Source: Variovorax sp. HW608 (GTDB lineage: Bacteria; Pseudomonadota; Gammaproteobacteria; Burkholderiales; Burkholderiaceae_C). Taken from it: a stretch of 64,000 nt of DNA. The position numbers and the translations under genes are program-made. The stretch covers positions 6,412,229 to 6,476,228 of the forward strand of contig NZ_LT607803.1 of the NCBI RefSeq assembly GCF_900090195.1. Reading direction: 5' to 3'. The notes beneath the pieces were generated by a model. It searched no databases. It saw only the letters and a list, made by a program, of their open reading frames with translations, and was not told where the DNA came from. This document shows, one piece after another, positions 2,095 to 47,784 of this stretch; positions within the stretch are counted from its first letter, which is position 1; each line of letters starts with the position of its first letter.

Positions 2095-2108
2095 TTGACG
2101 CAGATCAA
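2095..2108 (+). promoter_or_regulatory. FNR/Anr-type box, promoter of the 71-residue protein gene
   Basis: TTGAC-GCAG-ATCAA matches the FNR consensus TTGAT-N4-ATCAA at all six outer positions. A -10-like hexamer TAGCAT lies at 2130-2135, 31 bp from the box centre, as in class II FNR promoters. It faces the gene at 2174. Assignment to the Fnr-type regulator at 50.6 kb is inference. Confidence 0.75.
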
Positions 2109-2173
2109 CAGGCTCCCCGCGCAGGCGCCTAGCATGGAAACGAGCACAGCCCCACCAGCGAAGAGACCCCCGT

Positions 2174-2389
2174 ATGAACAGCTCCGAATCGCCCCAGGCG
2201 CATCTTCAGGATGCCTTTCTTCTTTCCGCACTCGGGTGGCAACACCTGTTCCAGGAACAGCTGGAAAAGCTCCAGCAAGCGCAGCTTCATGCCATGGGAG
2301 AGTGGACGCAGACCTTTGTCGCCCTCTACCAGGACGCCTGGGATCGATGGACCGCACGCTTCGGCGGCGGCGTCCCGCTCGACGGCTGA
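2174..2389 (+). CDS. Small hypothetical helical protein, phasin-sized
   Basis: A 71-residue protein with no signal peptide or membrane segment. It is Gln/Leu/Trp-rich and predicted to be helical by heptad-like spacing (LFQEQLEKLQQAQLHAMGEW). I do not recognise a named family; composition and location beside phaC resemble short granule-associated proteins, but that is inference. Its own FNR box and -10 element lie 66-79 bp and about 40 bp upstream. It converges with the USP gene, 15 bp apart. Confidence 0.6.
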   Translation: MNSSESPQAHLQDAFLLSALGWQHLFQEQLEKLQQAQLHAMGEWTQTFVALYQDAWDRWTARFGGGVPLDG

Positions 2390-2404
2390 GCGCTTCTGCA
2401 AGCG

Positions 2405-3226
2405 CTAGTGCGCCATCAGCACCGGCAAGGTCATCGATTGCAGGATCGAACGGGTGGCGCCGCCGACCACCCATTCGCGCGCGCGGCTGTGACCGTAGCA
2501 GCCCATCACCAGGAGATCTGCACCCACATCGGCCGCGAGCGACAACAAGCGCTCGCCGATCTCGCCGTCGTCCACCCCGCCCGTTCGTACCGAGGCATCG
2601 ACGCCCTGCGTCCGCAGATAGGTCTGCAGCCGGCGCAGTGAAGCTTCGGCCGCCTCGCCGTAAGCCACCACCTGCACGGAGCGCGCACGCGAGAGCCAGG
2701 GCAGCGCGGCTGTCACGGCGCGAGCGGACTCGCGCGTTTCCTTCCAGGCGATGAGGACGGTCTGCCCGACCGCCGCCACGGTTCCCGCGTAGGGCACGAT
2801 CAACGCGGGCTTGCCGCATTCGACGAGCACGCTGGACACGAACTCCGGCGGCAGGTCCGCCGCGTCGGGATCCTCTTCATTGCGCTGGCCGAGGACCAGC
2901 AGGTCGGCATACAGCGCCCGCCGGGCAAACGCCCAGGGCTCGTCGCCCAAGGCTTCTTCCCAATGCAGGCGCGGCGAGCCGGCAGCGGCATCCACGAAGA
3001 GGGCGAGTGCCTTGTCCCGGCGTTCCTTGTCGAGCTCCTTCATGATGGAGATCGCATCCGGCGCCGCGCTCAATGCGTACGGATAGCGCATCAGGGCCGT
3101 CAGGGTGCAGGGCAGGCCCGTGACCTCCGCTTCGAAGGCATCGGCCAAGGATCGCGCAAGCTGGATCCGCACCGTGGCGCGCGGCGAACTGTCGAGATGG
3201 AGCAGGATGGACTTCGGGGTCTGCAC
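2405..3226 (-). CDS. Universal stress protein, two-domain
   Basis: A 273-residue tandem UspA protein. The N-terminal domain opens with KSILLHLDSS; the C-terminal domain opens at TVLIAWKETRES and ends with the nucleotide-binding loop GCYGHSRAREWVVGGATRS, a G-x2-G-x9-G pattern. I place the start at the GTG at 3226, because AAAGGA sits 6-7 bp before it, rather than at the TTG five codons upstream. The same architecture and ending (LPVLMAH) recur at 42.2 and 48.4 kb. USPs of this type help cells survive oxygen limitation and other stresses; the ligand is not known here. Confidence 0.88.
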   Translation of the reverse strand: MQTPKSILLHLDSSPRATVRIQLARSLADAFEAEVTGLPCTLTALMRYPYALSAAPDAISIMKELDKERRDKALALFVDAAAGSPRLHWEEALGDEPWAFARRALYADLLVLGQRNEEDPDAADLPPEFVSSVLVECGKPALIVPYAGTVAAVGQTVLIAWKETRESARAVTAALPWLSRARSVQVVAYGEAAEASLRRLQTYLRTQGVDASVRTGGVDDGEIGERLLSLAADVGADLLVMGCYGHSRAREWVVGGATRSILQSMTLPVLMAH

Positions 3227-3285
3227 GGCCGTTCCTTTCAACGCTTTGGTCGCCGGCAGTCTGCGCCCTGGTTGGGCGCGCCGCC

Positions 3286-3299
3286 TTGCGCCGCGTCAA
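3286..3299 (-). promoter_or_regulatory. FNR/Anr-type box upstream of the USP gene at 2405-3226
   Basis: TTGCG-CCGC-GTCAA as written on the plus strand. On the minus strand a -10-like CAGACT lies at 3258-3263, 32 bp from the box centre. It sits in the gap between phaC and the USP gene, giving the USP its own promoter. Confidence 0.65.
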
Positions 3300-3335
3300 C
3301 TCAGCACTCGGGCCGCGATTCCCGTCACGCGCCGG

Positions 3336-5081
3336 CTAGGACTCTCGCACGTACGCGCCCGGCGCGGGAACGATCCGTCCGTCGATCGTGACGCTGCGGA
3401 CGGCCCTCGCCGCGGTTTCTCCGCTCGAGTGCTCGCGCAGCCAATGCGTCCACGCCGGCCACCACGAGCCCTGGAATCGCTGCGCGCCGGCGAGCCAGTC
3501 GTCGGGCTCCGCCGGAGCTTGGTGCGCAGCGTGGTGCATCTGGCGGTATGAAGCGGCCGCATGCGCGGCAGGCCCCTGCGGCGGGTTGACGATGCCCACG
3601 TTGTGGCCGCCCGACGTCAGCACGAAGTCGATGTCGGAATCGACGAGTCGATGGACCCGGTAGACGGATTTCCACGGCGACACATGATCCCTCTCGGTCG
3701 CGACGGCGAACATCGGGACCTTGATCCGCGACAGGTCCACCGGGTCGCGCGAGGTGCAGCAGAAGCGGCCTTCGGCCAGATCGTTGCGCAGGTACAGATG
3801 CCGCAGATACTCCGCGTGCATGCGCGCGGGCATGCGTGTGGCATCGGCGTTCCATGCGCGCAGCGCGGTCATCGGTGTGGTGGCGCCCATCAGGTACTCG
3901 TGCACCAGCTTGGACCACACCAGGTCCTTTGAATTGATGAGCTGGAAAGCCCCGGCCATCCGCCTGCCGTCGAGGTATCCGTTCTCCGTCATGAGGTCCT
4001 CGAGAAAGGCCACCTGGCTCTCGTCCATGAAGAGCCCCAGCTCGCCGGGCTCGGAGAAGTCGGTCTGCGCCGCGAACAGCGTCAGTGTCCGCAGCACGTC
4101 CCGGCATTCCGGCAGTGCCGCGGCGATGGCCAGCAGCGTACCGCCGAGGCAATAGCCTGCCGCATGGATGCCGGTCTTCGGATACAGCGACCGGATGGTG
4201 GCGAGCGAATCGAGCACACCGCGCCGGACGTAGTCTTCCATTCCCAGGCCCGCCTGTTCGCTTCGCGGGTTGCGCCACGACACGATGAAGACGGTGTGGC
4301 CGTTCTCGATGAGGTACTTCACCAGCGAATCCTGCGGCGTGAGGTCGAGGATGTAGAACTTCATGATCCATGCCGGAACGATGAACACGGGCTCACGCAG
4401 AACGGTCGCGGTTGCGGGCTCGTACTGGATCAGCTCGGCCAGCTCGTTGCGCATGACGACCTTGCCCGGCGTGAGCGCCACGGCCTGGCCCGGCAGGAAG
4501 TCCTCCACGCCGCGGGCCTTGCCATTGCCCGCGACCGTCACCGCATCGCGCGCCCAATTGACGAATCCGTTCGCCAGGTTGGCGCCGCCCGTCGTCAGCG
4601 TCCGCTTCAGCACCTCCGGATTGGTCGCGACGAAGTTGGACGGCGACAGCATGTCCAGCCACTGGCGCGCAACGAAGGCGACCTGATCCTCGTGGTGCTT
4701 CGAGACACCGCGCACACCATGCGTCGCCTCCTCCCACCACTGCTGAGCCGACAGGAAGGCACGAGCCATTGCGTCGAAGGGCGGCTCTGCCCACTCCTTG
4801 TGCGCGAATCGCCTGTCCTGTCGGGCCATGGCCTCATCCGCCTGCGCATCGTGCTCGCTCGACACGAGGGCCAGCCACCACGCCAGCGACTTGCGAAGTG
4901 CGCTCGCCGACAGCTCGGCCTGCTTCGCCGGCGACACCAGCAGGTGCACCAGCCAGTCCGACTGCGCCTGCGCGAGCGAAGCGGGAGAGATGCCGTTGGC
5001 AAGCTGTGCAATCCACTGCTTGAGCGGCAGATCCATGACAGCCGGTCCGTGACCGGCAGGGCAAACACGGGATTGATCCAT
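3336..5081 (-). CDS. phaC: Poly(R)-hydroxyalkanoate synthase, class I
   Basis: Polymerises (R)-3-hydroxyacyl-CoA, normally 3-hydroxybutyryl-CoA, into PHB at the granule surface. The 581-residue product carries an N-terminal PhaC domain and an alpha/beta-hydrolase core. The lipase-like box GYCLGG has nucleophile Cys311, with Asp465 (TERDHVSPW) and His493 (SGGHN) completing the triad. The reading frame extends upstream to a TTG at 5129, but that codon is inside the FNR box. The ATG at 5081 lies exactly 41.5 bp from the box centre, at the predicted transcription start, with no ribosome site, so a leaderless mRNA is possible. An internal ATG at 5036 is an alternative start. The gene is separate from the granule-type genes at 51-53 kb. 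Confidence 0.93.
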   Translation of the reverse strand: MDQSRVCPAGHGPAVMDLPLKQWIAQLANGISPASLAQAQSDWLVHLLVSPAKQAELSASALRKSLAWWLALVSSEHDAQADEAMARQDRRFAHKEWAEPPFDAMARAFLSAQQWWEEATHGVRGVSKHHEDQVAFVARQWLDMLSPSNFVATNPEVLKRTLTTGGANLANGFVNWARDAVTVAGNGKARGVEDFLPGQAVALTPGKVVMRNELAELIQYEPATATVLREPVFIVPAWIMKFYILDLTPQDSLVKYLIENGHTVFIVSWRNPRSEQAGLGMEDYVRRGVLDSLATIRSLYPKTGIHAAGYCLGGTLLAIAAALPECRDVLRTLTLFAAQTDFSEPGELGLFMDESQVAFLEDLMTENGYLDGRRMAGAFQLINSKDLVWSKLVHEYLMGATTPMTALRAWNADATRMPARMHAEYLRHLYLRNDLAEGRFCCTSRDPVDLSRIKVPMFAVATERDHVSPWKSVYRVHRLVDSDIDFVLTSGGHNVGIVNPPQGPAAHAAASYRQMHHAAHQAPAEPDDWLAGAQRFQGSWWPAWTHWLREHSSGETAARAVRSVTIDGRIVPAPGAYVRES

Positions 5082-5115: not shown

Positions 5116-5129
5116 TTGCGGCGCGTCAA
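5116..5129 (-). promoter_or_regulatory. FNR/Anr-type box, phaC promoter
   Basis: TTGCG-GCGC-GTCAA on the plus strand, in the 51-bp gap between phaC and the L,D-transpeptidase gene. On the minus strand ACGATC at 5087-5092 is the best -10 candidate, about 33 bp from the centre. The phaC ATG (5081) falls at the predicted +1. Confidence 0.65.
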
Positions 5130-5132: not shown

Positions 5133-5960
5133 TCACCCGCCCTGTGCGTGTCCCTGCGGCGCTTTCGGCGAGACGGTCCAGGCCGCCCGCGCCTTCAGGC
5201 CGCTGTCCACGATGACGACATAGCGACCGGGGTCGGCAACCGTCTCGCGGTCTTCCTTCAGGACCCATGGCGCCTGGCCGTCGGCCACAAGCCGCTCGTA
5301 CTCGGCATCCAGCACGCCATAGTGGTCCAGGAGCGTATTCAGCGTGGCCGGAATGCGGACGCAGCCCTTGGACTGCACGCTGCCAAGGCGATGCTCCAGC
5401 GAATCGGGCTCGGTCGCGTGCATCTGCAGCCGCATGTCGATGGTCGCGCGATCGCCCCAGCCTTTCGGTGCACGTTGCCAGCCGAGGTCGTACACCCGCA
5501 TGCCTTTTCGGCCATAGCCGCGGATCCCGTTGCTGTTGAAGGTCCCCTCGGCGCGAAAGTCCGGATTGGATGGCGAATGCTCGAACACGCCCGCGGGCGT
5601 CTCGAAGTGATCGAAGGTACCGGGACGTCCCGTGGACACCGGCGATGCGCCGATGAAGCGGTAGTCGCCGGATTCCGAGCGCCAGAACAGCAGCGCCGCC
5701 TGCACCCTGGGGTCGCGATCGACCACGAGCAAATACTGCGCGCTGGACAAGTCCGCTTGCGCGTCGCGCAGGGCCGTCTCGGCGAGCCTCCGATAGCGCC
5801 GCACTTCGCCCGCGGGCACGGCGAATGCGCGGTCCACCTGGCTGCGGTAGGCCGCGGTCAATTCCTGGGGGGACGGCAGCGCCGCACTCAGGGTCGCAGT
5901 CGAGAAGAAGAAGCAAATGGCGCCCGCGAGGACCAGGACGGGCGTGCAGCATCGTTTCAT
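5133..5960 (-). CDS. L,D-transpeptidase family protein (YkuD), exported
   Basis: A 275-residue protein starting at ATG 5960 with a signal peptide (MKRCCTPVLVLAGAICFFF, cleavage near LSA-A). The C-terminal half is a YkuD domain: the region HATEPD...LGSVQSKGCVRIP carries the catalytic His and Cys, with SKGC in place of the common SHGC. Such enzymes make 3-3 peptidoglycan cross-links or attach proteins to peptidoglycan. An in-frame TTG at 6008 lies inside the FNR box and cannot be the start. The ATG is exactly 41.5 bp from the box centre, so its mRNA may be leaderless. It is divergent from hsp20. Confidence 0.83.
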   Translation of the reverse strand: MKRCCTPVLVLAGAICFFFSTATLSAALPSPQELTAAYRSQVDRAFAVPAGEVRRYRRLAETALRDAQADLSSAQYLLVVDRDPRVQAALLFWRSESGDYRFIGASPVSTGRPGTFDHFETPAGVFEHSPSNPDFRAEGTFNSNGIRGYGRKGMRVYDLGWQRAPKGWGDRATIDMRLQMHATEPDSLEHRLGSVQSKGCVRIPATLNTLLDHYGVLDAEYERLVADGQAPWVLKEDRETVADPGRYVVIVDSGLKARAAWTVSPKAPQGHAQGG

Positions 5961-5994: not shown

Positions 5995-6008
5995 TTGAGC
6001 CAGATCAA
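5995..6008. promoter_or_regulatory. FNR/Anr-type box shared by the L,D-transpeptidase and hsp20 genes
   Basis: TTGAG-CCAG-ATCAA. Rightward, TACATT at 6031-6036 is 32 bp from the centre; leftward, GACAAT (minus strand, 5967-5972) is also 32 bp away. One box therefore has correctly placed -10 elements on both sides. Confidence 0.75.
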
Positions 6009-6098
6009 GCCGCTCGCTCCTGCAGCGGCCTACATTGAATTTTGCGCGGTTCAAAGTAGCCACGCTTGATCATCCACTTTCGATCCTGAGGAGCCATC

Positions 6099-6666: not shown

Positions 6667-7935
<1,269 letters not shown>

Positions 7936-7986: not shown

Positions 7987-8000
7987 TTGCGCTAGGTCAA
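7987..8000. promoter_or_regulatory. FNR/Anr-type box between the groEL-like gene and the reductase remnant
   Basis: TTGCG-CTAG-GTCAA. Leftward, AAGATG (minus strand, 7958-7963) is about 33 bp from the centre, and the groEL-like ATG is 58 bp away. Rightward I see no well-placed -10 (CATATC is about 36 bp away). Confidence 0.6.
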
Positions 8001-8111: not shown

Positions 8112-8669
8112 GTGGCCGACCCAGTCGCATGCCGTGAGGGCGTGGCCCGCGTGGAAGCCGAGCTCGGCCACGTCGACGTGCTGGTCAACAACGCCGGCAT
8201 CACCCGCGACGCCATGCTGCACAAGATGTCGGACGCGCACTGGCGCGAAGTGATCGACGTCAACCTGGGTGGCTGCTTCAACATGTGCCGCGCTGTCATC
8301 GAAGGCATGCGGGAGCGCCGCCATGGACGCATCGTCAACATGGGTTCCGTCAACGGGCTCGCGGGGCAGGCCGGCCAGTGCAACTATGCGGCAACCAAGG
8401 CGGGGATGATCGGCTTCACGAAGTCCCTCGCCCTGGAGGGCGCCTCGCGCAACATCACGGCCAACGTGATCGCGCCCGGCTACACGGACACCGCCATGGT
8501 CGGCGCGGTGCCGCCCGAGGTGCTCGCAGGAATCCTCAAGACCGTGCCGGTCGGCCGCCTCGCGACGGCTGCCGAGATCGCGCGCGCGGTGGTGTTCCTC
8601 GCATCGGAGGACGCGGGCTTCATCACCGGCATCACCTTGTCGATCAACGGCGGCAAGTACATGCCCTGA
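8112..8669 (+). pseudogene. N-terminally truncated PhaB-like acetoacetyl-CoA/3-oxoacyl reductase
   Basis: The frame encodes the C-terminal three quarters of a short-chain dehydrogenase most like PhaB: DVLVNNAGITRDAM, NMGSVNGLAGQAGQCNYAATK with the catalytic Ser-Tyr-Lys set, and the ending ITLSINGGKYMP. Homology already exists before the first usable start (GIPAFAWNVAD, from about 8088), but a stop at 8055 closes the frame. The N-terminal NADP-binding TGxxxGIG strand is absent and there is no room for it before the FNR box at 7987. A GTG at 8112 could yield 185 residues, which would lack the cofactor site. Most likely a remnant. Confidence 0.75.
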
Positions 8670-8685: not shown

Positions 8686-10038
8686 TCAAAGGGCCACCGT
8701 CTGCAGATAGTCCGGCACGCCGGCCTGCCAGTTGAACCGCTCTTCGATCGCCAGGCGCAGCGCGTCGGCGGCGACCGGCTCGCCGTGCGTCACGAACACG
8801 CGCTTCGGCGCCGGCAATCCTTCCAGCCAGGCCAGGAGTTGGCTGCGATCGGCATGCGCCGAGAGCATGTCCAGCCCGACCACCTCGGCGCGCACGTGCA
8901 CATAGGCGCCATGGATCTTGATGTCCCTCGCCCCGGCCAGCATCGCCGCGCCACGGGTCCCGGCGGCCTGGTAGCCGGCGAAGAGGATCGTGCTCCTCGG
9001 ATCGGGCGCATACGCTTCCAGGTGGTGCAGCACGCGCCCGCCGGTCGCCATGCCGCTCGCCGAGATGATGATCGACGGAAAGCTCAGCCCGTTCAGCCGC
9101 TTCGACTCTTCGACCGTGTTGACGAATTTCACCTCCTTGCTCAGCGCGGCACACTGCGCGGCATCGAGGCGATGCTGGTCCGAATGACGCCGCAGGATGT
9201 GCGTCGCATCCGCTGCCATCGGACTGTTGAGATACACCGGCAGGTCGGGAATCCGGCGCGCCGCCTTGAGCAGGTGGATGCAGTGCAGAAGTGTCTGGGC
9301 CCTGCCCACCGCGAAGGCCGGCACCACGACGATGCCGCCCCGCGCGGCCGTCCGGTCGATCACTTCTGCAATCGCCGACAAGGTGTCGACCTTGGCATGC
9401 AGGCGATCGCCATAGGTGGATTCGATGACCACGTAGTCGGCAGGCTCCGGCCGCTCGGGCGGGCGCATCACCAGATCGTCATCCCGGCCCAGATCGCCGG
9501 AAAAGAGGATGCTGCCGCCCTCCCAGGCAAGGTGGATGCTCGCAGCGCCGAGGATGTGCCCGGCGCGTCGCAGTCGCCATGTCCAGCCCGGCCAGGGGGC
9601 ATGCGTCTTGTCGAAATCCAGGACTTCGAAGCGTTCGAGGGCCGCACGCGCATCGTCCTCCGTGTACAGCGGCAGTGCGGGCTTGTGGCGGGAATGGCCG
9701 TGACGATTGGCGTAATCGGCCTCCTCCTCCTGCAGGTGGCCGGAGTCGGGCAGCAGCAACTCGCACAGATCGCGCGTCGCCTGCGTGGCATAGACGGGGC
9801 CGTTGAAGCCCAGCTTGATCAGGCGCGGAACGAGGCCGCTGTGATCGAGATGCGCATGCGTCAACAAGACCGCATCGATCTCGGAGGCCTTGACCGGCAA
9901 GGGCTCCCAGTTGCGCAGGCGCAATTGCTTCAGGCCCTGGAACAGCCCGCAATCCACCAGGAGGCGGCGGCCCGCGTGCTCCAGCAAGTACTTCGACCCG
10001 GTGACCGTGTCGGTTCCACCGAGAAACCGGATGCGCAT
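8686..10038 (-). CDS. MBL-fold/beta-CASP RNA-processing hydrolase
   Basis: A 450-residue metallo-beta-lactamase-fold protein with the beta-CASP insertion and RNA-specificity domain, related to CPSF73/RNase J-like exonucleases. Zinc ligands are visible in HAHLDHSG (His61, His63, Asp65, His66), with GHILGAASI and FSGDLGRDDD further on. ESTYGDRLH, ISASGMATGGRVLHH and FAGYQAAGTRGA are typical of the family. ATG 10038 is preceded by AAGGAGA. It is divergent from the USP gene at 10173 and may share its FNR box. A role in RNA turnover under stress is inference. Confidence 0.88.
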   Translation of the reverse strand: MRIRFLGGTDTVTGSKYLLEHAGRRLLVDCGLFQGLKQLRLRNWEPLPVKASEIDAVLLTHAHLDHSGLVPRLIKLGFNGPVYATQATRDLCELLLPDSGHLQEEEADYANRHGHSRHKPALPLYTEDDARAALERFEVLDFDKTHAPWPGWTWRLRRAGHILGAASIHLAWEGGSILFSGDLGRDDDLVMRPPERPEPADYVVIESTYGDRLHAKVDTLSAIAEVIDRTAARGGIVVVPAFAVGRAQTLLHCIHLLKAARRIPDLPVYLNSPMAADATHILRRHSDQHRLDAAQCAALSKEVKFVNTVEESKRLNGLSFPSIIISASGMATGGRVLHHLEAYAPDPRSTILFAGYQAAGTRGAAMLAGARDIKIHGAYVHVRAEVVGLDMLSAHADRSQLLAWLEGLPAPKRVFVTHGEPVAADALRLAIEERFNWQAGVPDYLQTVAL

Positions 10039-10097: not shown

Positions 10098-10111
10098 TTG
10101 CGCGGCGTCAA
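10098..10111 (+). promoter_or_regulatory. FNR/Anr-type box, USP (10173) promoter
   Basis: TTGCG-CGGC-GTCAA with -10-like GATACT at 10133-10138, 31 bp from the centre. The predicted start is near 10146, giving a 27-nt leader with AAGGAG. It may also serve the divergent beta-CASP gene, although no -10 is obvious on that side. Confidence 0.75.
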
Positions 10112-10172
10112 TGGTCCGGTGCCCTGCGGGCGGATACTGAATGTTTCTGGACACCAGCGCAAGGAGTCTTCC

Positions 10173-13780: not shown

Positions 13781-15832
13781 ATGAGCGCCATGAACGAAGC
13801 TCCCGAATTCGACGAAGGTACGGTCTTCCGCTCGCTTTTCGCTGCCTATCCGGACGCGCTCCTGGTGGTCGATCTGGAAGGCATCATTCGCCTGGCCAAT
13901 CCCGCCGCGCTCGCGCTCCTGGGCTACGAAGCCGACGAGTTGCTGGGCCTCGGCGTCGATGTCCTCGTGCCCGATGCCATCCGTCCGCGCCATGCGGCGT
14001 ACCGGGATGCCTATGCTGCGCACCCGCGGCCCCGTCCGATGGGAACGCAGATGGACCTGGTCGCCAGGCGCCGTGACGGGCGCGAAGTGATGGTCGAGAT
14101 CGCCCTCAGCCCGCTGCAGGACCATGGGCTGCCCTACGTGGTGGCGGCCATCCGCAACATCACGGACTATCCGCGCGTCAAGCAGGCGCTTCAGCGGGCG
14201 CGTTATGCGGAGCACCTGGCCAAATTCGGGCGCCTCGCCGTGGATGCCCGCGAATCGGAAAAACTCCTGGCCGAGGTGCCCGTCGTGGCTGCCGATGCAC
14301 TGCAGGTGGAAATGGCCGAAGTCCGGCTGCTCGAGCCGAACGGACTCAAGGTCCGGGTCGCCACGGCCGCTGGCCCGGATTCGGCACAGAGGATTGGCCT
14401 CAGGCTCGCGATCGAGCCGGGCTCCGCGCTCGAAATGGTCCTGGCCGAAGGCAAGGCCGTCGTGGCGGGTGACAGCGACGGGCACGCCGAACGAAGCCTC
14501 GAATTGACGCCCAGCGATCGCGAGACCGGGGTCGTCTGCAAGCTGCTGGTGCCCTTGGCGGACCGGGGCCGCACGATCGGGGCGCTGGCCGTGCGTTCCC
14601 GCACCCGGCGCACCTTTGGCGAGGACGAACTGAACTTTCTGGAATCGCTGTCGAGCCTGCTGGCGACGGTCCTGCAGCGCGCCAGCAGCGAAGATGCGCT
14701 GAACCATGCACAGCGCCTCGAATCGGTCGGCCAGCTCACCGGTGGCATCGCGCATGACTTCAACAACCTGCTCACGGTGATCTCCGGCAATCTCCAGATC
14801 CTGCGCGATGTGCCCGCGTACGCATCGGATGCGCTCGTGCAGCCGCTGGTCGACTCGGCCCTCCGCGCCACGCAGCGCGGCGCCGAACTCACCGCCAAGC
14901 TCCTGGCCTTTTCGCGCCGCCAGGTGCTTCAACCTACCGTGGTCGACCTCGGCGTTCTGCTGCGCTCCCTCACCGGCATGCTGCGCCGGACGCTGGACCA
15001 GCGCATCGCGATCGAACTCGACGTCGCCGTCGACCTGCGGTGCACGGTCGATCCCGTCCAGCTCGAGTCCGCGCTCCTGAACATTGCGCTCAATGCGCGC
15101 GATGCCATGCCGAAGGGGGGCACCCTGAGGTTCAACTGCCATGTGGCCGTGACGAAGCCGCCGGAACTCGAGCTCGCGGAGGCGGGCGCGGCAGGCTTCA
15201 TCGCCATCGAGATCTCGGACACCGGTGAAGGCATGCCGGAAGCCGTCCGCGAGCGGGCGTTCGAACCCTTCTTCACCACCAAGGAAAGCGGGCGAGGCAC
15301 CGGGCTCGGCCTGGCCACCGTGTACGGTTTCGCACACCAATCGCGGGGGGCGGCCACCCTCGAGAGCACGCCGGGCCACGGCACCACCGTCACCTTGTAC
15401 TTGCCGCGCGTGGGCGGCGGCGAGGTCCAGGCCGAAGTGCAAAGCGCCAGCCCCAGAGCGAATATCCCCAAGGGCTTGAAGGTCCTGCTCGTCGAGGACG
15501 ACCCGGAAGTCATCGCCGTGGTCCGGCAGTTTCTGACATCGATGGGCCTCGAGGTGCTGCCCTGCACGGACGGTCAGCAGGCCCTGCAGGTACTGGAAGA
15601 CCAGCCGGTCGATCTGTTGCTGACCGACGTCTTCCTCGGCCCCGGCCTGCGTGGCACCGAGGTGGCGGCCAGGGCAAGGCGCAGACGCCCCGGCCTTCCG
15701 ATCCTCCTGATGTCGGGCTATTCCGGTGAATTGCTCGACGACCCGATGGGGTGGGAGGTGCTGGCAAAGCCCTATACCCGCGCCGAGCTCGAACGCGCGA
15801 TCGGCCGGGTGCTCAAGAACCGGGCGCAGTGA
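13781..15832 (+). CDS. Hybrid histidine kinase: PAS-GAF-HisKA-HATPase-REC
   Basis: A 683-residue soluble sensor kinase without membrane segments. Order: PAS (about 15-130), GAF (about 150-300), HisKA with phospho-acceptor His325 in LTGGIAHDFNNLL, HATPase_c (ALLNIALNARDAMP; SDTGEGMP; GTGLGLATVYGF) and a C-terminal receiver with Asp616 (DLLLTDVFLG). The PAS domain contains RPRHAAYRDAY with His71, aligning with the RSRHDSY segment that holds the proximal haem ligand of FixL, so a haem-based gas sensor is possible. It follows the P-ATPase by 80 bp and no partner regulator is adjacent. ATG 13790 is an alternative start. Confidence 0.9.
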   Translation: MSAMNEAPEFDEGTVFRSLFAAYPDALLVVDLEGIIRLANPAALALLGYEADELLGLGVDVLVPDAIRPRHAAYRDAYAAHPRPRPMGTQMDLVARRRDGREVMVEIALSPLQDHGLPYVVAAIRNITDYPRVKQALQRARYAEHLAKFGRLAVDARESEKLLAEVPVVAADALQVEMAEVRLLEPNGLKVRVATAAGPDSAQRIGLRLAIEPGSALEMVLAEGKAVVAGDSDGHAERSLELTPSDRETGVVCKLLVPLADRGRTIGALAVRSRTRRTFGEDELNFLESLSSLLATVLQRASSEDALNHAQRLESVGQLTGGIAHDFNNLLTVISGNLQILRDVPAYASDALVQPLVDSALRATQRGAELTAKLLAFSRRQVLQPTVVDLGVLLRSLTGMLRRTLDQRIAIELDVAVDLRCTVDPVQLESALLNIALNARDAMPKGGTLRFNCHVAVTKPPELELAEAGAAGFIAIEISDTGEGMPEAVRERAFEPFFTTKESGRGTGLGLATVYGFAHQSRGAATLESTPGHGTTVTLYLPRVGGGEVQAEVQSASPRANIPKGLKVLLVEDDPEVIAVVRQFLTSMGLEVLPCTDGQQALQVLEDQPVDLLLTDVFLGPGLRGTEVAARARRRRPGLPILLMSGYSGELLDDPMGWEVLAKPYTRAELERAIGRVLKNRAQ

Positions 15833-15871: not shown

Positions 15872-15885
15872 TTGAGCAGCGTCAA
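15872..15885 (+). promoter_or_regulatory. FNR/Anr-type box, carbamoyltransferase-like gene 1
   Basis: TTGAG-CAGC-GTCAA with -10-like TAGCGT at 15907-15912, 31 bp from the centre. The predicted +1 coincides with the GTG at 15920. The arrangement is repeated at 46979. Confidence 0.75.
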
Positions 15886-15919
15886 GTCCGGCGGGCTCAA
15901 CCGGCGTAGCGTCGTCCAC

Positions 15920-18855: not shown

Positions 18856-18869
18856 TTGATATGCGTCAA
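18856..18869. promoter_or_regulatory. FNR/Anr-type box between the BON gene and the Mla-type operon
   Basis: TTGAT-ATGC-GTCAA, one of the best matches in the window. Rightward, TAGCAT at 18891-18896 is 31 bp from the centre, so the lipid-transporter operon is the clear target. Leftward, only GATGCG lies at the right distance. Confidence 0.75.
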
Positions 18870-18977
18870 TCGACCGGAGGCTCCGGTTCCTAGCATGGGC
18901 TGATCATCCGAAACGGTCTACGATGCCATCGCCGCGGCGCTCGATCCGGGTGCGGCAGACAACCCCTGATCCTCGCC

Positions 18978-22576: not shown

Positions 22577-22590
22577 TTGCGATAGCTCAA
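22577..22590 (+). promoter_or_regulatory. Weak FNR/Anr-type box before the Ala-rich exported protein
   Basis: TTGCG-ATAG-CTCAA keeps the outer TTG and CAA. No clear -10 hexamer lies at the distance used elsewhere (the nearest is CATGAA at 22610), so this is the weakest box of the set. Confidence 0.4.
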
Positions 22591-40837: not shown

Positions 40838-41584
40838 TCAGCCGGCTTCGACCTTCGCGACCAGGATGTAGCCTGCCCCGCGCACCGACTTGATGATCTG
40901 GGGGTTGCCCGGGTCGGCTTCGAGCTTGCGGCGCAGACGCCCGATCTGCACGTCGATGGTCCGGTCGAACGGGCCCGCCTCGCGCCCGCGCGTGGATTCG
41001 AGCAGGAAATCGCGCGACAGCACCCGGTTCGGGTGGCTTGCGAGCACGCTGAGCAGTTCGAACTCCCCGGTGGTCAGCACGGTCTCCGTGCCGTTCGGAT
41101 CGAGCAGGCGTCGTGCGGCCGTGTCGAGCGCCCAGTTCGCAAAGCGCAGCACCTGCCCATTCGGGGCCGGCGGCGAAGCCACGGCCGGGGCAGCCGGCGG
41201 CGGGGCCGGCGCCACGCGCCGCAGCACGGCCTTGATGCGGGCCAGCAGCTCGCGCAGATCGAAGGGCTTGGTGACATAGTCGTCGGCCCCCACCTCCAGC
41301 CCCACCACCTTGTCCACCGCGTCGCCGCGGCCCGTCACGATGATGAGGCCGCAGTGCCAGTGTTCGCGCACGGTCCGGGCGATCGCGAAACCGTCCTCCC
41401 CCGGCAGGCCGAGGTCGAGCAGGAGCAGGGCCGGTGGATCGCTGGCCATCAACGCCATCAGGTCCGATCCCGAGTGGACCGCGCTGACGCGATAGCCCTG
41501 GGCGCTCAGGTAGACGGACAGCATGCGGGTGATCTCGACCTCGTCGTCGAGGACGGCGAGATGCGGGGTGGCGACTGTGTTCAC
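40838..41584 (-). CDS. OmpR-family response regulator
   Basis: A 248-residue regulator. The receiver has acidic DDE near residue 13, phospho-acceptor Asp57 (LLLLDLGLPGEDG) and the Lys in YVTKPFD. A Pro/Ala-rich linker (APAPPPAAPAVASPP) leads to a winged helix (TTGEFELLSVLASHPNRVLS; GRLRRKLEADP). The GTG at 41584 is the only usable start; the nearby ATG is out of frame. No kinase is adjacent. The gene is 34 bp downstream of the DksA/TraR-type gene and probably shares its FNR promoter. Confidence 0.9.
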   Translation of the reverse strand: MNTVATPHLAVLDDEVEITRMLSVYLSAQGYRVSAVHSGSDLMALMASDPPALLLLDLGLPGEDGFAIARTVREHWHCGLIIVTGRGDAVDKVVGLEVGADDYVTKPFDLRELLARIKAVLRRVAPAPPPAAPAVASPPAPNGQVLRFANWALDTAARRLLDPNGTETVLTTGEFELLSVLASHPNRVLSRDFLLESTRGREAGPFDRTIDVQIGRLRRKLEADPGNPQIIKSVRGAGYILVAKVEAG

Positions 41585-41618: not shown

Positions 41619-42023
41619 TCAGGTGCGGCGCTGCCTTTCGCTGGCCAGCTGGCAGGCGCCGCAGCGCAGCGCCGTCGGATAGGCCATGAGGCGCTCGCGC
41701 GGAATGCCTTCTGCGCAGTCCACGCACACGCCATAGCGGCCCTCGTCCATTCGCCGCAGGGCCTGCTCGATCTCACGCAGGCGCTGGCGATCGGCGTCGA
41801 TCTCGGCGAAGCGCAGGTCCTCGCTGCGCTCCAGTTCCGCATCGTCCGCGTTGTCGTGGACCTCATGTTCGTACGACACGCGCTCCTGGAGGGGGTTCAG
41901 CGGCTCGGTGCGCCGACACAGCTCGTCCAGCGTGCGTTGCTTCAGGGTCTCGAGCTGCCTGCGCAAGGTCTGGCGGTCGAGCTCGGCCAACACGCCGCTT
42001 GGGACCGGTGCATCGGATTTCAT
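41619..42023 (-). CDS. DksA/TraR-family zinc-finger protein
   Basis: A 134-residue protein likely to act in the RNA polymerase secondary channel. An N-terminal coiled coil (about 15-85, with acidic DNADDAELERSEDLR at its tip) is followed by a C4 zinc finger: CVDC, then CGAC 23 residues later. GRYGVCVDCAEGIP is the usual prokaryotic DksA/TraR motif. ATG 42023 has AAAGGAA upstream. The FNR box at 42101 with TACATT points at it, linking transcription control to low oxygen. Confidence 0.9.
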   Translation of the reverse strand: MKSDAPVPSGVLAELDRQTLRRQLETLKQRTLDELCRRTEPLNPLQERVSYEHEVHDNADDAELERSEDLRFAEIDADRQRLREIEQALRRMDEGRYGVCVDCAEGIPRERLMAYPTALRCGACQLASERQRRT

Positions 42024-42100: not shown

Positions 42101-42114
42101 TTGTGCTGGATCAA
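42101..42114 (-). promoter_or_regulatory. FNR/Anr-type box, DksA/TraR-like gene promoter
   Basis: TTGTG-CTGG-ATCAA on the plus strand. On the minus strand TACATT (42073-42078) lies 32 bp from the centre, the same hexamer as at hsp20. The predicted leader is about 43 nt. Confidence 0.7.
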
Positions 42115-42135: not shown

Positions 42136-42149
42136 TTGACGAAGCGCAA
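42136..42149 (+). promoter_or_regulatory. FNR/Anr-type box, USP (42209) promoter
   Basis: TTGAC-GAAG-CGCAA; its reverse complement is TTGCG-CTTC-GTCAA, the variant common in this window. GAAGAT at 42171-42176 is 31 bp from the centre but a poor -10. The two divergent genes therefore have one box each, 35 bp apart. Confidence 0.55.
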
Positions 42150-42208
42150 ACGCCGCCGGCGCCTGCGCGCGAAGATGCGGCATCGCATCCATGAAGAAGG
42201 GCACAGCG

Positions 42209-43067: not shown

Positions 43068-44564
43068 GTGCACGTGCCAACCCCGGAACCAGACGGTCCG
43101 CCCCCGCGGGGCCGGCTGGCGGAGCACGCAGCCCTGGTGCGCGCGCTCGCGCTGCGACTGGGCGCGCGGGTGATCGAGACCCACATCTCCTGGATCCTGC
43201 TCACGCCCGCTCACGCCTACAAGCTGAAGAAGCCGGTGCGCCTCGCCTTCCTGGACTACGCCACGCTGCGCAAGCGGCGGCACTTCTGCCACGAGGAAGT
43301 GCGCGTGAACCGCCGCACGGCGCCTTCGCTGTACCTGGGTGTCGCACGCATCACGGGGAACCCATCGGCGCCCGAGATCGACGGCGCCGGGCCGGTGCTC
43401 GACTATGCCGTGCACATGCGACGTTTCGCCGATGGAGCCCTCTTCAGCGAGCGATTGGCCGCAGGCACGCTCACCGCGCGCGACGTGGACGAGCTTGCCG
43501 CCATGCTGGCCGCTGCGCACGCTGCAGCGCCCGTCCGGCGCCACGTAACCGCTGAGCACACGGGGCACGCGCCCCCGCTGCGCCGCGCCCTGGCTGCGCT
43601 CGAGGGCGTGCGCCCGATGCTCTCCGCCGCCGAGAGCGCAGGCCTGCAGGCGTGGCTCGAGGCAGGCGCCCGCAAGCTCGAGCCCGAATGGGTCTCGCGC
43701 CGCCGCAGCGGCCATGTCCGCGAATGCCACGGCGACCTTCACCTGGACAACATCGTCGACCTCGACGGGGCGGTCGCCGGCTTCGACGCCATCGAGTTCG
43801 ACCCCGCGCTGCGATGGATCGACGTTGCGGAAGATGCAGCGTTTCCGGCGATGGACTTCGCGGCGCGCGGGCGGCCGGACTTCGCCTGGCGATTCCTCAA
43901 CGCATGGCTCGACGCCACCGGCGAGCAGCAAGCCGCAGGCGTGCTGCGCTACGCGCTCGTCTACCGGGCACTGGTGCGCGCCCAGGTCGAGCACCTGCGC
44001 GCGGGCCGCTGCGCCGCGGCAACGGCCTACGTCCGCGCGGCACTCGAATGGTCGCACCCGGCCTTGCCGCGCCTGGTGATCACGCACGGCCTGCCCGGCT
44101 CCGGCAAGACCTTCCAGTCCCAAAGGCTGCTGGAGCAGCATGGGGCGATCCGCGTGCGCTCCGACGTGGAACGCAAGCGCCTGTTCGGCCTGGGTGCGCT
44201 CGAGAGCTCGCGCGCGCACGGGCTCGACATCTATTCGCGCGAGGCGACGGCGCGCACCTACGAGCAGCTCTTCGCGCTCGCGCGCACCCTCCTCGGCGCG
44301 GGCTTCAGCGTGGTGATCGATGCGGCTTTCCTGCGTCGCGCCGAGCGCGACGCGGCACATGAACTCGCACGCCGGTGCGGCGTGCGGTTCCAGATCCTCG
44401 CCTGCCAGGCACCGGATGGGGTCCTGCGCGAGCGCCTCGCCGCCCGCACATCCGATGCCTCGGAGGCCGACGCCGCCGTGCTGCGGCAGTTGCGCGCGGC
44501 CGCCGAGCCGCTCGCAGCCGACGAGCCCCTCCTGCCCTCACCCCTGGCGGCCGCGCACGGATGA
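43068..44564 (+). CDS. APH-like phosphotransferase fused to an AAA/kinase ATP-binding domain
   Basis: A 498-residue two-domain protein. Residues about 20-320 resemble aminoglycoside/choline-type phosphotransferases (HVRECHGDLHLDNIV with the catalytic Asp, and FDAIEFDPALRWID as the metal-binding region). Residues about 335-498 are a P-loop kinase (THGLPGSGKTFQSQ; VRSDVERKRLFGL). Such fusions occur in stress and PHB-associated loci, but their substrate is unknown. GTG start 16 bp after the USP stop. Its last 27 bases overlap the convergent MscS gene. Confidence 0.85.
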   Translation: MHVPTPEPDGPPPRGRLAEHAALVRALALRLGARVIETHISWILLTPAHAYKLKKPVRLAFLDYATLRKRRHFCHEEVRVNRRTAPSLYLGVARITGNPSAPEIDGAGPVLDYAVHMRRFADGALFSERLAAGTLTARDVDELAAMLAAAHAAAPVRRHVTAEHTGHAPPLRRALAALEGVRPMLSAAESAGLQAWLEAGARKLEPEWVSRRRSGHVRECHGDLHLDNIVDLDGAVAGFDAIEFDPALRWIDVAEDAAFPAMDFAARGRPDFAWRFLNAWLDATGEQQAAGVLRYALVYRALVRAQVEHLRAGRCAAATAYVRAALEWSHPALPRLVITHGLPGSGKTFQSQRLLEQHGAIRVRSDVERKRLFGLGALESSRAHGLDIYSREATARTYEQLFALARTLLGAGFSVVIDAAFLRRAERDAAHELARRCGVRFQILACQAPDGVLRERLAARTSDASEADAAVLRQLRAAAEPLAADEPLLPSPLAAAHG

Positions 44565-46214
44565 CACCTGCGGGCCCGGCGAGGCGGGGCTCGCGTACCA
44601 CTGCGTCTTCGGCACCACGACCGCGTGGTCCGGCTGGCCCAGGAAGTGCGGCGACATGATCTGGACACCGTGCTCGTTGAAGGCGTCCTGGATGCTCTCG
44701 TGAAGGGCCGAAAGGATCGGGATGCGGTCCGGCGGGTTCTCGATGCTGGCGAACAGCTCGTATTCGACGTAGAAGTCCGACAGCGCGCGCTGGTAGACGT
44801 AGGGCTCCGGCGTCGCGCGCACGCCGCGGGTCCTGCGCGCCGCGTCGATCAGCAGTGCATGCACCTGCCGCCAGGGCGCGTCGTAGCCGATGGTGACCTT
44901 GGTGCTGAGCAGCGTGCCGTGCGTGCCCGAGAGCTTCGAATAGTTGTGGATCGGACTGGAGATCACGACCGAATTCGGGATCGTGATTTCGTCGTTGCGC
45001 ACGTTGACGATCTTGGTCGCGAGCGAGGCCACCTCGGTGACCACGCCCTGCACGCCGTTGATGTCGACGAAGTCGCCCTTGTGCAGCGAGCGCGAGTAGA
45101 TGACGACCAGCCCGCTCATGAGTTGCGTGACCAGCCCGGTGGACCCGAGCGTGATCATCAGGCCGAACAGGACCGAGAGTCCCTTGAACACATCGCTGCT
45201 CGCGCCGGGCAGGAAAGGATAGGCCACTGCGATGCCGACGCACCAGGCAAAGACCGTGAAGATGCGGCGGGTCGCGCTCACGGTCTCGGGGTGGAACAGC
45301 GGCAGGCGCAGGCGGCCCTTCTGCAGCGCATCGAACAGGTAGCCCAGCAGGTCGACGACCAGGCGTGTGAATGCGAGGACGATCACGACGGTTGCAAACC
45401 CCGGCAGGCTGTCCAGCGCGCCCTCGGCCAGCCAGGAGAGCTTGTGCACCAGCCAATCGCCGAGATCGCGCGCGATCGGCGCCGTGGCCACGAAGCTGCC
45501 GAGCACGAAGTGCGCCCATGAATAGGTGAGCGCGAGCAGGACGATCCATTGGAGCACCTGCAGGACAACGACCGCCACCCTGGCGAGGAATTCGCGCCAG
45601 TCGACGTGGGAAAAGCGTGCCGCGAGCACGTCCCGCCTCTTTTCCATCAGCACCACCACCCGGGCCATGACCCGATAGGCGCCCCAGACCAACGCAACGA
45701 AGAGCAAGGTGGCACCAGCCGACCGCAACAGGCCTTGCAGCAACAGCGGCCTGCTGCGCATCTCGCCCCATGCGGCGTGGACCTCCTCCATGTGGTCGCG
45801 CGTCTGGGCGACCAGGGCGTCGAAATCCTGCTTGGTGTCGGCGTCGACGTCACCCTCGACCACCGAGAACAAGGGAAGGTCGCCGACCAGGAACTGCACG
45901 CCGCGGCCGCCGCCGGACTGGAACTGCACGGTATTGATCGGCAGCGCAACCGCCTCGTCCGGCAACGCCTCCAGGCGTTCGCGGGCCCGCCGCACGCGCG
46001 CCTGCGGCGTCATGCCGGCGATGCGCCCCCGCATCGTGAGGATGTCGCGATGGAGTATGCGCAGCGTGGCGGCTTCGTCGGGCTGGGCGGCGGCGGATGG
46101 CGCCGACGCCTTCGATGCGAGGTCCCCGGCATCCGCCGCGGCCTGGCAGGTGGCGCTGAAGGCAAGCAGCCATCCCGCCACAAGGGTCGCCAACATCGAA
46201 GTCATGCTGCTCAT
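44538..46214 (-). CDS. MscS-family mechanosensitive channel with long N-terminal region
   Basis: A 558-residue protein. Signal peptide (MSSMTSMLATLVAGWLLAFS, cleavage near CQA-A), a periplasmic domain to about residue 160, several membrane segments, then the MscS core: ITLGSTGLVTQLMSGLVVIY, and the beta domain GDFVDINGVQGVVTEVASLA with ITIPNSVV. It releases solutes upon osmotic downshift. The perfect FNR palindrome at 46285 with TAGCAT at the right distance points to low-oxygen control. The 3-prime end overlaps the APH/AAA gene by 27 bp tail to tail. Confidence 0.9.
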   Translation of the reverse strand: MSSMTSMLATLVAGWLLAFSATCQAAADAGDLASKASAPSAAAQPDEAATLRILHRDILTMRGRIAGMTPQARVRRARERLEALPDEAVALPINTVQFQSGGGRGVQFLVGDLPLFSVVEGDVDADTKQDFDALVAQTRDHMEEVHAAWGEMRSRPLLLQGLLRSAGATLLFVALVWGAYRVMARVVVLMEKRRDVLAARFSHVDWREFLARVAVVVLQVLQWIVLLALTYSWAHFVLGSFVATAPIARDLGDWLVHKLSWLAEGALDSLPGFATVVIVLAFTRLVVDLLGYLFDALQKGRLRLPLFHPETVSATRRIFTVFAWCVGIAVAYPFLPGASSDVFKGLSVLFGLMITLGSTGLVTQLMSGLVVIYSRSLHKGDFVDINGVQGVVTEVASLATKIVNVRNDEITIPNSVVISSPIHNYSKLSGTHGTLLSTKVTIGYDAPWRQVHALLIDAARRTRGVRATPEPYVYQRALSDFYVEYELFASIENPPDRIPILSALHESIQDAFNEHGVQIMSPHFLGQPDHAVVVPKTQWYASPASPGPQVSSVRGRQG

Positions 46215-46284: not shown

Positions 46285-46310
46285 TGCCGCTTGATCCGGA
46301 TCAAGCGGCA
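46285..46310 (-). promoter_or_regulatory. Perfect FNR consensus box in a 26-bp palindrome, mscS promoter
   Basis: The core TTGAT-CCGG-ATCAA (46291-46304) is the exact FNR consensus, and six more bases on each side pair perfectly, giving a 26-bp palindrome. On the minus strand TAGCAT (46263-46268) lies 32 bp from the centre. The predicted mscS leader is about 42 nt. Confidence 0.85.
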
Positions 46311-46326: not shown

Positions 46327-46340
46327 TTGACCTGCGTCAA
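46327..46340 (+). promoter_or_regulatory. FNR/Anr-type box, USP (46403) promoter
   Basis: TTGAC-CTGC-GTCAA with -10-like CATACT at 46362-46367, exactly 31 bp from the centre. The predicted leader is about 28 nt and includes AAGGAG. Confidence 0.8.
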
Positions 46341-46402
46341 TCGCGATCGCGGGCTGCGCGCCATACTGGGGCTCGTTCAAGAACACCCACAAGGAGCACG
46401 CC

Positions 46403-46939
46403 ATGTACCAGCAGATTCTCGTCCCCGTCGACGGCAGCGCGACCTCGATGCAGGGCCTCGAGCAGGCCATCGACATGGCGCGACTCGTCAACGGCAGGCT
46501 GCGGCTGATCCACGTGGTCGACGAGCTGTCCGCCGCCTTTGCGATGGACGCCTATTCCGGCTATGTCGGCGACTGGGTGGGCCTGCTGCGCGAGAACGGC
46601 AGCAAGCTCCTGGCCGAATGCCGGCAGAAGGCCCTGGCCGCCGGCATCGCAGCGGACACGATACTGCGCGACAACCTCGACGGCTCGGTGCCCGAGCTCG
46701 TCACGAAGGAGGCCGCGAGCTGGCCGGCCGATCTGATCGTGCTGGGCACCCACGGCCGCCGCGGGGCGAAGCGCCTGTTCCTCGGCAGCAGCGCCGAGCA
46801 GATCCTGCGCATCGCGCCCGTCCCCATCCTGCTGGTGCGCGCGATCGAACAGCCGACCGAGGGCGAAAAGACGGAGGCGGAGGCCGGGCGCAAGCCGCTT
46901 CGCGTGACGCTGCCCAGCGGCGCGCTGGCGATCGAATGA
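46403..46939 (+). CDS. Universal stress protein, single-domain, with C-terminal extension
   Basis: A 178-residue UspA-fold protein with the ATP loop GTHGRRGAKRLFLGSS. It is the close paralogue of the USP at 10173: 23 identical N-terminal residues and a 35-residue identical stretch. It adds a tail (EGEKTEAEAGRKPLRVTLPS, ending GALAIE) that is absent in the copy at 10173 but similar to the tail of the USP at 47853 (ending GALSIE). AAGGAG precedes the ATG. Confidence 0.93.
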   Translation: MYQQILVPVDGSATSMQGLEQAIDMARLVNGRLRLIHVVDELSAAFAMDAYSGYVGDWVGLLRENGSKLLAECRQKALAAGIAADTILRDNLDGSVPELVTKEAASWPADLIVLGTHGRRGAKRLFLGSSAEQILRIAPVPILLVRAIEQPTEGEKTEAEAGRKPLRVTLPSGALAIE

Positions 46940-46978
46940 GCCACGGGCGCCTGTCAGGCGCTTGAGGACGCATCGATA

Positions 46979-46992
46979 TTGAGCGGCGTCAA
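46979..46992 (+). promoter_or_regulatory. FNR/Anr-type box, carbamoyltransferase-like gene 2
   Basis: TTGAG-CGGC-GTCAA with TAGCGT at 47014-47019, 31 bp from the centre. The predicted +1 coincides with the GTG at 47027, the same geometry as at 15872. Confidence 0.75.
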
Positions 46993-47026
46993 GTCCGCCC
47001 GTCGCAACCGGCGTAGCGTTGGCCGC

Positions 47027-47737
47027 GTGATCGCCTCTCATGCCGTGCGACCTCCGGTGGCCGACCCCCTGTCTTCCGCCGGGATTGCCTCCCTCATTGC
47101 GACCGCCGAGCAACTGCGGCGGCCCGCAGCCGCGCGTCCGCTGCGCGGCAAGAACCTCGCGCTGCTGCGTCCGGATGCCTCCGCCGGGCCGTCGAGCCTG
47201 CAACATGCCGCCGAGGAAATCGGCGCCCGCGTGGCCATGCTGGAATTTCCCCGCCCCGCGCGGACCCGCCAAGCAGACGAGGAGGTCGGTACGCTGGCCC
47301 GTCTGCTCGGCCGCATGTACGACGGCATCGATTGCGCCGATCTCCATGCCTCGATCCGGCGGCTGATCGAGTCGCAGGCCGGCGTGCCGGTGTTCCCCGG
47401 CCTGGAACTCGATACCCATCCGGCCCGGGTGATCGCGGACCTCTGGACGCTCTGCGAGCACCAGGGCCCGGGCGACCGGCGGATCGTCTTCATCGGCAAC
47501 GGACGCAGGGCGCGGGCCCGGATGTTCATGGCCGCGGCCCGCGCGATGGGCGTCGCGATCCTCACGAAGACCCGCGCCGAGGGCGGCGGCGAGAAGATGG
47601 CGGCGGTCGCGGACGCCTCCGGGCCCGGCCGCTGGGTCCTGTGGATCGGCGACATGGCGGTCGACGACGAAGCCGCGCAGGACAACCACCGCCGCATCAT
47701 GCAGGCCGTGCTGGTCGACGCCTTGCGCAGCGCCTGA
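47027..47737 (+). CDS. Ornithine/aspartate carbamoyltransferase-like protein, catalytic motifs lost (copy 2)
   Basis: A 236-residue paralogue of the protein at 15920, of identical length. Conserved blocks include SLIATAEQLRR, LRGKNLALLR, LLGRMYDGIDCADL, and AGVPVFPGLELDTHPARV followed by IADLWTLCE. Like copy 1 it lacks the STRTR carbamoyl-phosphate loop, has HPAR instead of HPxQ, and keeps a C-terminal helix (NHRRIMQAVLVDAL) like the NRMHTIKAV helix of true enzymes. GTG 47027 lies at the predicted +1 with no ribosome site; GTG 47045 is an alternative. Retention of both copies suggests a non-catalytic or altered function. Confidence 0.75.
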   Translation: MIASHAVRPPVADPLSSAGIASLIATAEQLRRPAAARPLRGKNLALLRPDASAGPSSLQHAAEEIGARVAMLEFPRPARTRQADEEVGTLARLLGRMYDGIDCADLHASIRRLIESQAGVPVFPGLELDTHPARVIADLWTLCEHQGPGDRRIVFIGNGRRARARMFMAAARAMGVAILTKTRAEGGGEKMAAVADASGPGRWVLWIGDMAVDDEAAQDNHRRIMQAVLVDALRSA

Positions 47738-47770
47738 GTCTTTCGTCGGGCGGCACCCGATGACCCTCGT

Positions 47771-47784
47771 TTGCGCCAGATCAA
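47771..47784 (+). promoter_or_regulatory. FNR/Anr-type box, USP (47853) promoter
   Basis: TTGCG-CCAG-ATCAA with GATACT at 47807-47812, 32 bp from the centre. The predicted leader is about 34 nt and carries GAAGGAGG. Confidence 0.8.

Follow-up and report, generated by a model that had tools for sequence, protein, structure and literature searches.

In Rhizobium leguminosarum 3841 and R. etli, the hFixL-FxkR-FixK relay consists, according to the passages of the reports that were available, of a hybrid PAS kinase with a receiver, a response regulator, and a repeat operator upstream of a gene for a CRP/FNR protein that lacks an Fe-S cluster, and this cluster-less protein reads boxes of the TTGAT-N4-ATCAA type, for example before the cbb3 oxidase (PMC7888657, PMC4999443). 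The operator, or K-box, was reported there at position −62 (PMC7888657), and the origin of the hFixL-FxkR-FixKf cascade was placed in the ancestor of Rhizobiaceae (PMC4999443). In the Burkholderia cepacia complex, the FixLJ-FixK/Anr2 system and the lxa locus, as far as described in the parts consulted, offer a low-oxygen locus with universal stress proteins (USPs) and a small heat-shock protein (PMC5234846, PMC6127331, PMC9104464, PMC3759415), as well as two-component control of an FNR-type gene. Herbaspirillum seropedicae possesses multiple Fe-S Fnr proteins, betaproteobacterial FNR paralogs which, in the portion of the paper seen, share targets including uspA genes and are described as keeping their cysteines (PMC5934665). 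Here, we analysed a stretch of 64,000 nucleotides (hereafter the window; positions 6412229-6476228 of the single-contig 7.73 Mb genome of Variovorax sp. HW608), in which fifteen FNR-type boxes accompany the gene of a cluster-less CRP/FNR-family regulator (50596..51330, plus strand), an OmpR-type response regulator and a hybrid histidine kinase. This layout of kinase, response regulator, operator and cluster-less regulator is like that of the rhizobial relay as the available passages describe it. In the best model that the sequences allow, the boxes are probably class II activator sites of a multi-island low-oxygen stress and survival regulon, read mainly by the cluster-less FNR under a two-component relay.

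The fifteen boxes had been located in a preliminary description of this DNA; on re-scanning, every coordinate proved exact, and all 15 boxes lie between called genes and face a start. TTGN8CAA occurs 17 times in the window, versus 5.07 expected from 100 shuffles of the window, none of which reached 17, and versus 7.7 expected from random stretches (p 0.002), a less striking excess by plain count. Among intergenic sites of the window, the 8-nt spacer gave 15 sites and the spacers 4-7 and 9-12 gave 0-1 each, whereas a sample of 28 random stretches (20 kb each) from this genome contained 28 intergenic sites with the 8-nt spacer, inside the range of 17-42 for other spacers. The observation made in the preliminary description was confirmed and proved stronger than it had been put there. 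The stricter pattern TTGN6RTCAA was found 13 times in the window against 1.14 expected (Poisson p ~3e-10), and genome-wide 150 times forward and 139 times reverse, the reversed pattern giving 75 and 73. Intergenic box density was 2.96/kb in the window versus 0.20/kb elsewhere, a comparison less safe than the spacer control because the simple codon-usage gene caller, trained on the window, leaves more DNA unassigned in the rest of the genome. The boxes are relaxed, with the full TTGAT-N4-ATCAA consensus in one of the 15 (46291). The remaining two TTGN8CAA sites are intragenic, at 9911 in a beta-CASP gene and at 31240 in a GapN-like gene of the sugar block, so that the earlier statement that this block is free of boxes stands for intergenic sites and fails for sites of all kinds. 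The same spacing prevailed in the regulator loci of 80 relatives (1.42 Mb), where 297 intergenic TTGN8CAA sites were found versus 28-48 for other spacers.

The position of the −10 element was analysed for intergenic boxes facing a gene within 30-250 bp, by counting NANNNT at each centre distance from 20 to 44. All 15 window boxes had such a hexamer at 31 or 32 bp, as did 16 of the 23 orientations of box and gene, while the frequency at the remaining offset pairs was 2.9% (binomial p 5e-20). The hits numbered 7 at 31 and 9 at 32, and no other distance gave more than 2; the preliminary count of at least ten boxes with this spacing was thus exceeded. In the loci of the 80 relatives, 219 of 265 promoter-facing boxes and 233 of 399 orientations had a −10 at 31/32, other distances gave 1-15 NANNNT hits each, and control spacers were without such a peak. 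In the class II arrangement, a box is centred at about −41.5. These data support the window boxes as FNR-type sites with class II geometry, for which binding and activation are predicted.

The product of 50596 is the likely reader of the boxes, as it carries an FNR-type recognition helix (ETVSR; GNYLGMTLETVSR), and with the motif applied, E-xx-SR was detected in 79 of the 80 orthologs. The N-terminal [4Fe-4S] cysteine motif was absent from this protein and from 80/80 orthologs, frames extended to the upstream stop included, and the equivalent of C122, the fourth cluster cysteine, is Trp in the protein and in 15/15 aligned ortholog rows. Its score with the NCBIfam Fnr model was 123.1 bits, below the cut-off of 228. 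Since the Fe-S cysteines are missing, oxygen sensing must lie outside this protein; the role proposed for it earlier, that of reading the boxes, is retained, whereas it cannot detect oxygen in the manner of FNR. A BCAM0049-like protein in a B. cenocepacia record, unlike the 50596 protein, is of the Fe-S type, with the Cys codons in frame. In a tree of 27 rows with long branches, which provides moderate evidence, the cluster-less regulators grouped together (97/97), next to the Fe-S FNRs of betaproteobacteria and apart from rhizobial FixK (85/99). The protein is 28% identical to FixK9a and by the tree is not a FixK, and we do not claim membership of the FixK clade for it.

Genomes that have this regulator and no detectable Fe-S FNR bear directly on the reader. 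Regulator presence, taken as at least 57% identity, was found in 27 of 150 sampled family genomes, and in 7 of these 27 the best other match to Fe-S FNR had at most 33% identity. Around the regulator in these seven genomes there are 20 intergenic boxes, 19 of them gene-facing, and 14 of the 19 have a −10 at 31/32. The boxed genes include that of a protein with the N-terminal domain of ornithine carbamoyltransferase (OTCase-N) in all five loci having one, as well as USP or BON genes (G109, G091), ccoN (G109) and hemN (G032, G092); the ccoN and hemN boxes are among the 14 with this −10. Because the boxes persist there, the cluster-less protein would be their natural reader where Fe-S FNR is not found. 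It has to be weighed that an ordinary Fe-S FNR might read the boxes in Variovorax sp. HW608, with the 50596 protein a minor or unrelated paralog. Such an FNR is encoded at 6.203 Mb; it has an N-terminal C-x2-C-x5-C motif and its own box 60 bp upstream, and neighbouring hemN and ccoN have boxes whose geometry matches that of the window boxes. We consider this alternative unlikely, however, as the seven genomes in which the cluster-less protein but no Fe-S FNR was detected have boxes with the same −10 geometry, and as the loci of the 80 relatives show a strong box enrichment around the cluster-less gene. With the cluster-less FNR as main reader, the Fe-S FNR would bind the same kind of box and the regulon would be shared by both proteins; both are present in this genome, and the share of each may differ from box to box.

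Upstream of the regulator gene, a K-box-like direct repeat, TTTACGCAGCGTTAC, was found at 50500..50514 (plus strand), followed by a −10-like TAGGCT at 50557-50562, 52 bp from centre to centre. The exact pattern TTYACN5GTTAC has one match in the 7.73 Mb genome, 96 bp before 50596, and the reversed pattern has 9. In the relatives' loci, 54 of 55 exact matches stand before the regulator, and among the 80 regulator promoters 54 contain an exact match and 17 more a match with one mismatch (71/80), compared with 1/80 after shuffling. At 52 bp downstream of the repeat centre, NANNNT was present in 53 and TANNNT in 45 of 55 promoters. Counts were low everywhere in the 150 genomes, and since 118 of them have at least one match, it is the position of the operator, not its mere presence, that is telling. 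In the R. leguminosarum 3841 pRL9 stretch (L145), the K-box GTTACAAACTGTTAC, of the form GTTAC-N5-GTTAC, precedes both fixK genes, and TTGN8CAA sites lie near cco and hemN genes. The operators share a 15-bp frame, although the first half here is altered from GTTAC, and the position would also agree, as about −62 is predicted here from the 52 bp to the −10 and a predicted start, and −62 is reported there in the passages seen. Autoregulation through the box before the regulator in relatives was considered and rejected, as the −10 faces the other way: of 72 box sites adjoining the regulator, 64 face away from it and one points at it, and the regulator gene therefore seems not to be box-driven.

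The candidate to act on this operator is the OmpR-type response regulator encoded at 40838..41584 (minus strand). It was found at full length and at least 64% identity in 25 of the 150 genomes, its own included, and in part in G105 and G091 (74 and 70%), where the fetched stretches place it beside the kinase and the regulator. With thresholds set at identity gaps after the data had been seen, these are exactly the 27 genomes that have the cluster-less regulator, and the best match in the other 123 is 53% (Fisher p 2e-30). Within three genes of the regulator in the 80 loci, the kinase was present in 64, the OTCase-N gene in 62, the response regulator in 54 and all three in 43. When rhizobial FxkR was compared with the Variovorax genome, 40838 was the best match (48%, 217.7 bits versus 201.6 for the next response regulator). 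The kinase, encoded at 13781..15832 (plus strand), has a PAS-GAF-HisKA-HATPase-REC arrangement, with a PAS domain whose closest PDB sequence is the haem PAS of FixL, and its kinase and receiver part is 44% identical to hFixL9 over residues 280-670. The differences from the rhizobial relay lie in the Burkholderiales host, in a PAS-GAF sensor instead of PAS-PAS, in the grouping of the regulator with betaproteobacterial FNR instead of rhizobial FixK, and in the OTCase-N neighbour. Compared with FixLJ-FixK/Anr2, the response regulator is of the OmpR type here, whereas FixJ is of the LuxR type.

It might also be proposed that the 50596 protein senses a signal directly, by redox change at its remaining cysteines or through haem or nitric oxide (NO), and that the two-component pair controls something else. 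Cys residues do remain in the sensor part of the protein, and DNR, likewise a cluster-less CRP/FNR protein, senses NO by haem. But the response regulator is distributed as the regulator is across the 150 genomes, and the direct repeat, unique in this genome, marks the regulator promoter; in addition, the Trp at the C122-equivalent, in the window and in all 15 aligned orthologs, argues against a cluster. Direct sensing is thus, in our judgement, improbable. In the relay favoured here, oxygen or redox state would be sensed upstream of the regulator by the hybrid PAS-GAF kinase 13781, which would pass phosphate to 40838; this response regulator would then bind the direct repeat at 50500-50514 and turn on the cluster-less FNR. 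The 50596 protein would in turn activate the USPs, Hsp20, PhaC, Mla and MscS through their boxes and, through box 42101, the pair of dksA-like and response-regulator genes, which would give positive feedback in this genome; the response regulator (40838-41584) comes 34 bp after the dksA-like gene (41619-41993), downstream of that box. By analogy, the system is expected to operate in the manner of the rhizobial hFixL-FxkR-FixK relay, the cluster-less FNR taking the place of FixK.

Several observations weigh against this model. The Fe-S FNR present in the window genome may itself drive boxes, and among the seven genomes without a detectable one, whose completeness is 100, 100, 99, 99, 97, 93 and 90%, two are only 93 and 90% complete. 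The counts of TTGCGN4RTCAA in the 150 genomes showed no visible separation by regulator presence. An exact operator is missing from 26 of the 80 relatives' promoters; of the 27 sampled genomes, G067, G092, G099, G105 and G128 contain no exact match anywhere, and G068, G040 and G085 have matches only elsewhere. The margin by which 40838 leads as FxkR match is modest (16 bits), and the three genes of the proposed relay (13781, 40838 and 50596) do not adjoin one another in this genome but are spread across 37 kb. General box-driven feedback on the response regulator was not borne out, a class II box preceding its operon in 9 of 51 scorable cases. In the kinase PAS, His71 is aligned with the proximal haem ligand of FixL and is present in 59 of the 61 rows, the other 2 being gaps, and Met91 occupies the position of the distal Arg, which makes oxygen binding doubtful. 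The conserved His was rejected as proof of haem, as His is common at such a position in PAS domains and the distal Arg is missing. Because that Arg is not kept, the signal of the kinase may be redox state or another gas.

The individual boxes and their predicted targets are as follows. In the first part of the window, box 2095..2108 (plus strand; −10 TAGCAT at 2130-2135) precedes a small open reading frame at 2174; box 3286..3299 (minus; CAGACT, 3263-3258), a near-copy of which occurs in an island at 2.4 Mb, precedes a double-domain USP gene (2405-3226); and box 5116..5129 (minus; GACGAT, 5093-5088) precedes phaC (3336-5036). Box 5995..6008 has −10 hexamers in both directions, with TACATT at 6031-6036 for Hsp20 (6099) and GACAAT at 5972-5967 for the gene at 5133-5960, whose product matches Pfam YkuD below the cut-off. 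Box 7987..8000 (minus; −10-like AAAGAT, 7964-7959), identical to a copy in the 2.4 Mb island, precedes a shortened GroEL gene (6667-7935). This GroEL-like protein has 422 aa and is without about 120 middle residues, and the 2.4 Mb island encodes a 541-aa GroEL, otherwise 98% identical, behind an identical box promoter (L017, 11750-13375). Between box 7987 and the next box lie a short-chain dehydrogenase call (8142-8669), without the N-terminal part of the Pfam model and with a 99% identical copy of equal length in the 2.4 Mb island, and a beta-CASP metallo-hydrolase gene (8686-10038), which recurs beside boxes (L015, L056, L060, L062, L067, L068) and, in relatives, near the cluster-less FNR. 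Box 10098..10111 (plus; GATACT, 10133-10138) precedes a USP gene at 10173, box 15872..15885 (plus; TAGCGT, 15907-15912) an OTCase-N-type gene at 16124, box 18856..18869 (plus; TAGCAT, 18891-18896) the mlaE-F-D-aux genes (18978-22534), and box 22577..22590 (plus; a weak −10-like GAAGCT, 22613-22618) the gene of an Ala-rich protein at 22646.

Beyond the sugar block, box 42101..42114 (minus; TACATT, 42078-42073) precedes the dksA-like gene, and box 42136..42149 (plus; −10-like GAAGAT, 42171-42176) a USP gene at 42191. The full-consensus box, 46291..46304 (minus; TAGCAT, 46268-46263), lies before an mscS gene (44538-46196), and box 46327..46340 (plus; CATACT, 46362-46367) before a USP gene at 46403. 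Box 46979..46992 (plus; TAGCGT, 47014-47019) precedes the OTCase-N-type gene at 47057..47737 (plus strand), a gene type that is boxed in relatives too and is the neighbour of the regulator in 62 of the 80 relatives' loci; box 47771..47784 (plus; GATACT, 47807-47812) precedes a USP gene at 47853. Pfam searches upheld the target families named in the preliminary description, that is, USP, PhaC, Hsp20, MscS, DksA-like and Mla. The genes at 16124-16630 and 47057-47737 encode stand-alone OTCase N-terminal (carbamoyl-phosphate-binding) domain proteins of 168 and 226 aa, respectively, and among the boxed genes that neighbour the cluster-less FNR in relatives, those of the OTCase-N type are the most frequent. 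Downstream of the regulator, the region 51444-62907 contains phasin-like, TetR and DegP-like genes and, by reading of translations, GlgB, GlgE-like and TreS-like genes, with no TTGN8CAA box.

The boxes extend beyond the window. With island positions taken from 100 of 289 places (TTGN6RTCAA) and 100 of 103 places, TTGN6RTCAA, TTGABN4RTCAA and TTGCGN4RTCAA cluster, among the matches listed, at 1.594-1.637, 2.408-2.480 and 6.200-6.212 Mb as well as in the window. The 6.2 Mb island comprises the Fe-S FNR gene, hemN, ccoN and a heavy-metal P-type ATPase gene. The 2.4 Mb island contains copies, 98-100% identical, of both BON genes, two double-domain USP genes, the PaaK-like, short-chain dehydrogenase and CBS genes of the window, the CBS copy being cut by the end of the stretch compared, together with fragments only of two other USP genes, the OTCase-N genes and the kinase gene, and the longer GroEL gene. 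As near-identical copies are mixed with fragments in this island, the segments have been duplicated and reshuffled; some window boxes are near-copies of boxes there, and the 15 boxes are not all independent. A rival reading, in which segmental duplication of a handful of promoters gave rise to most of the 15 boxes and the enrichment overstates selection, is nevertheless very improbable. The 2.4 Mb island does contain 90-99% identical copies of several window segments, boxes included in some cases, but the flanks differ for most window boxes, and the same enrichment recurs next to other genes in the relatives. The islands at 1.6, 2.4 and 4.37 Mb (L013-L015, L019, L022) have segments in common, with 71-94% DNA identity and boxes at similar places, which include genes for a heavy-metal P-type ATPase and a UbiB/ABC1-like kinase. 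L055 is among the three closest relatives; its regulator is found one gene away from pgi-zwf-eda-edd-pyk-gapN, and the boxed genes are on the other side. The sugar (glycolytic) block is thus a neighbour of the regulon and not its divider, and the idea of one regulon split around this block was abandoned, further islands lying elsewhere. The low-oxygen reading itself gained support, as we infer such a physiology for the boxed genes from ccoN and hemN, whose promoters, here and in some relatives, are of this type.

The likeness to the lxa locus suggested in the preliminary description holds for the USPs and the small heat-shock protein reported there, on the strength of passages from papers and not of lxa DNA; a comparison of the window USPs with 200 kb of one B. 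cenocepacia record gave no gene match, and lxa was not found in those 200 kb. No report of the relay in Burkholderiales was found in titles and the starts of abstracts among the matches listed, a search outside which most subscription papers lie. On balance, we lean towards the view that Burkholderiales have a FixK-like relay of their own, in which a betaproteobacterial FNR that lost its cluster would stand under an hFixL/FxkR-like pair with a K-box-like operator and would altogether replace Fe-S FNR as controller of the cbb3 oxidase, hemN and the stress islands in some Variovorax and Roseateles lineages. If this is true, the same wiring would have been reached or transferred across classes, in Burkholderiales and in Rhizobiaceae, with a cluster-less FNR of different derivation and with operator frame and position in common. 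It would also provide a testable answer to how bacteria in which no Fe-S FNR is detected, Variovorax sp. Root473 among them, could control the cbb3 oxidase and hemN, and with one operator and one response regulator, the oxygen input would be open to simple deletions.

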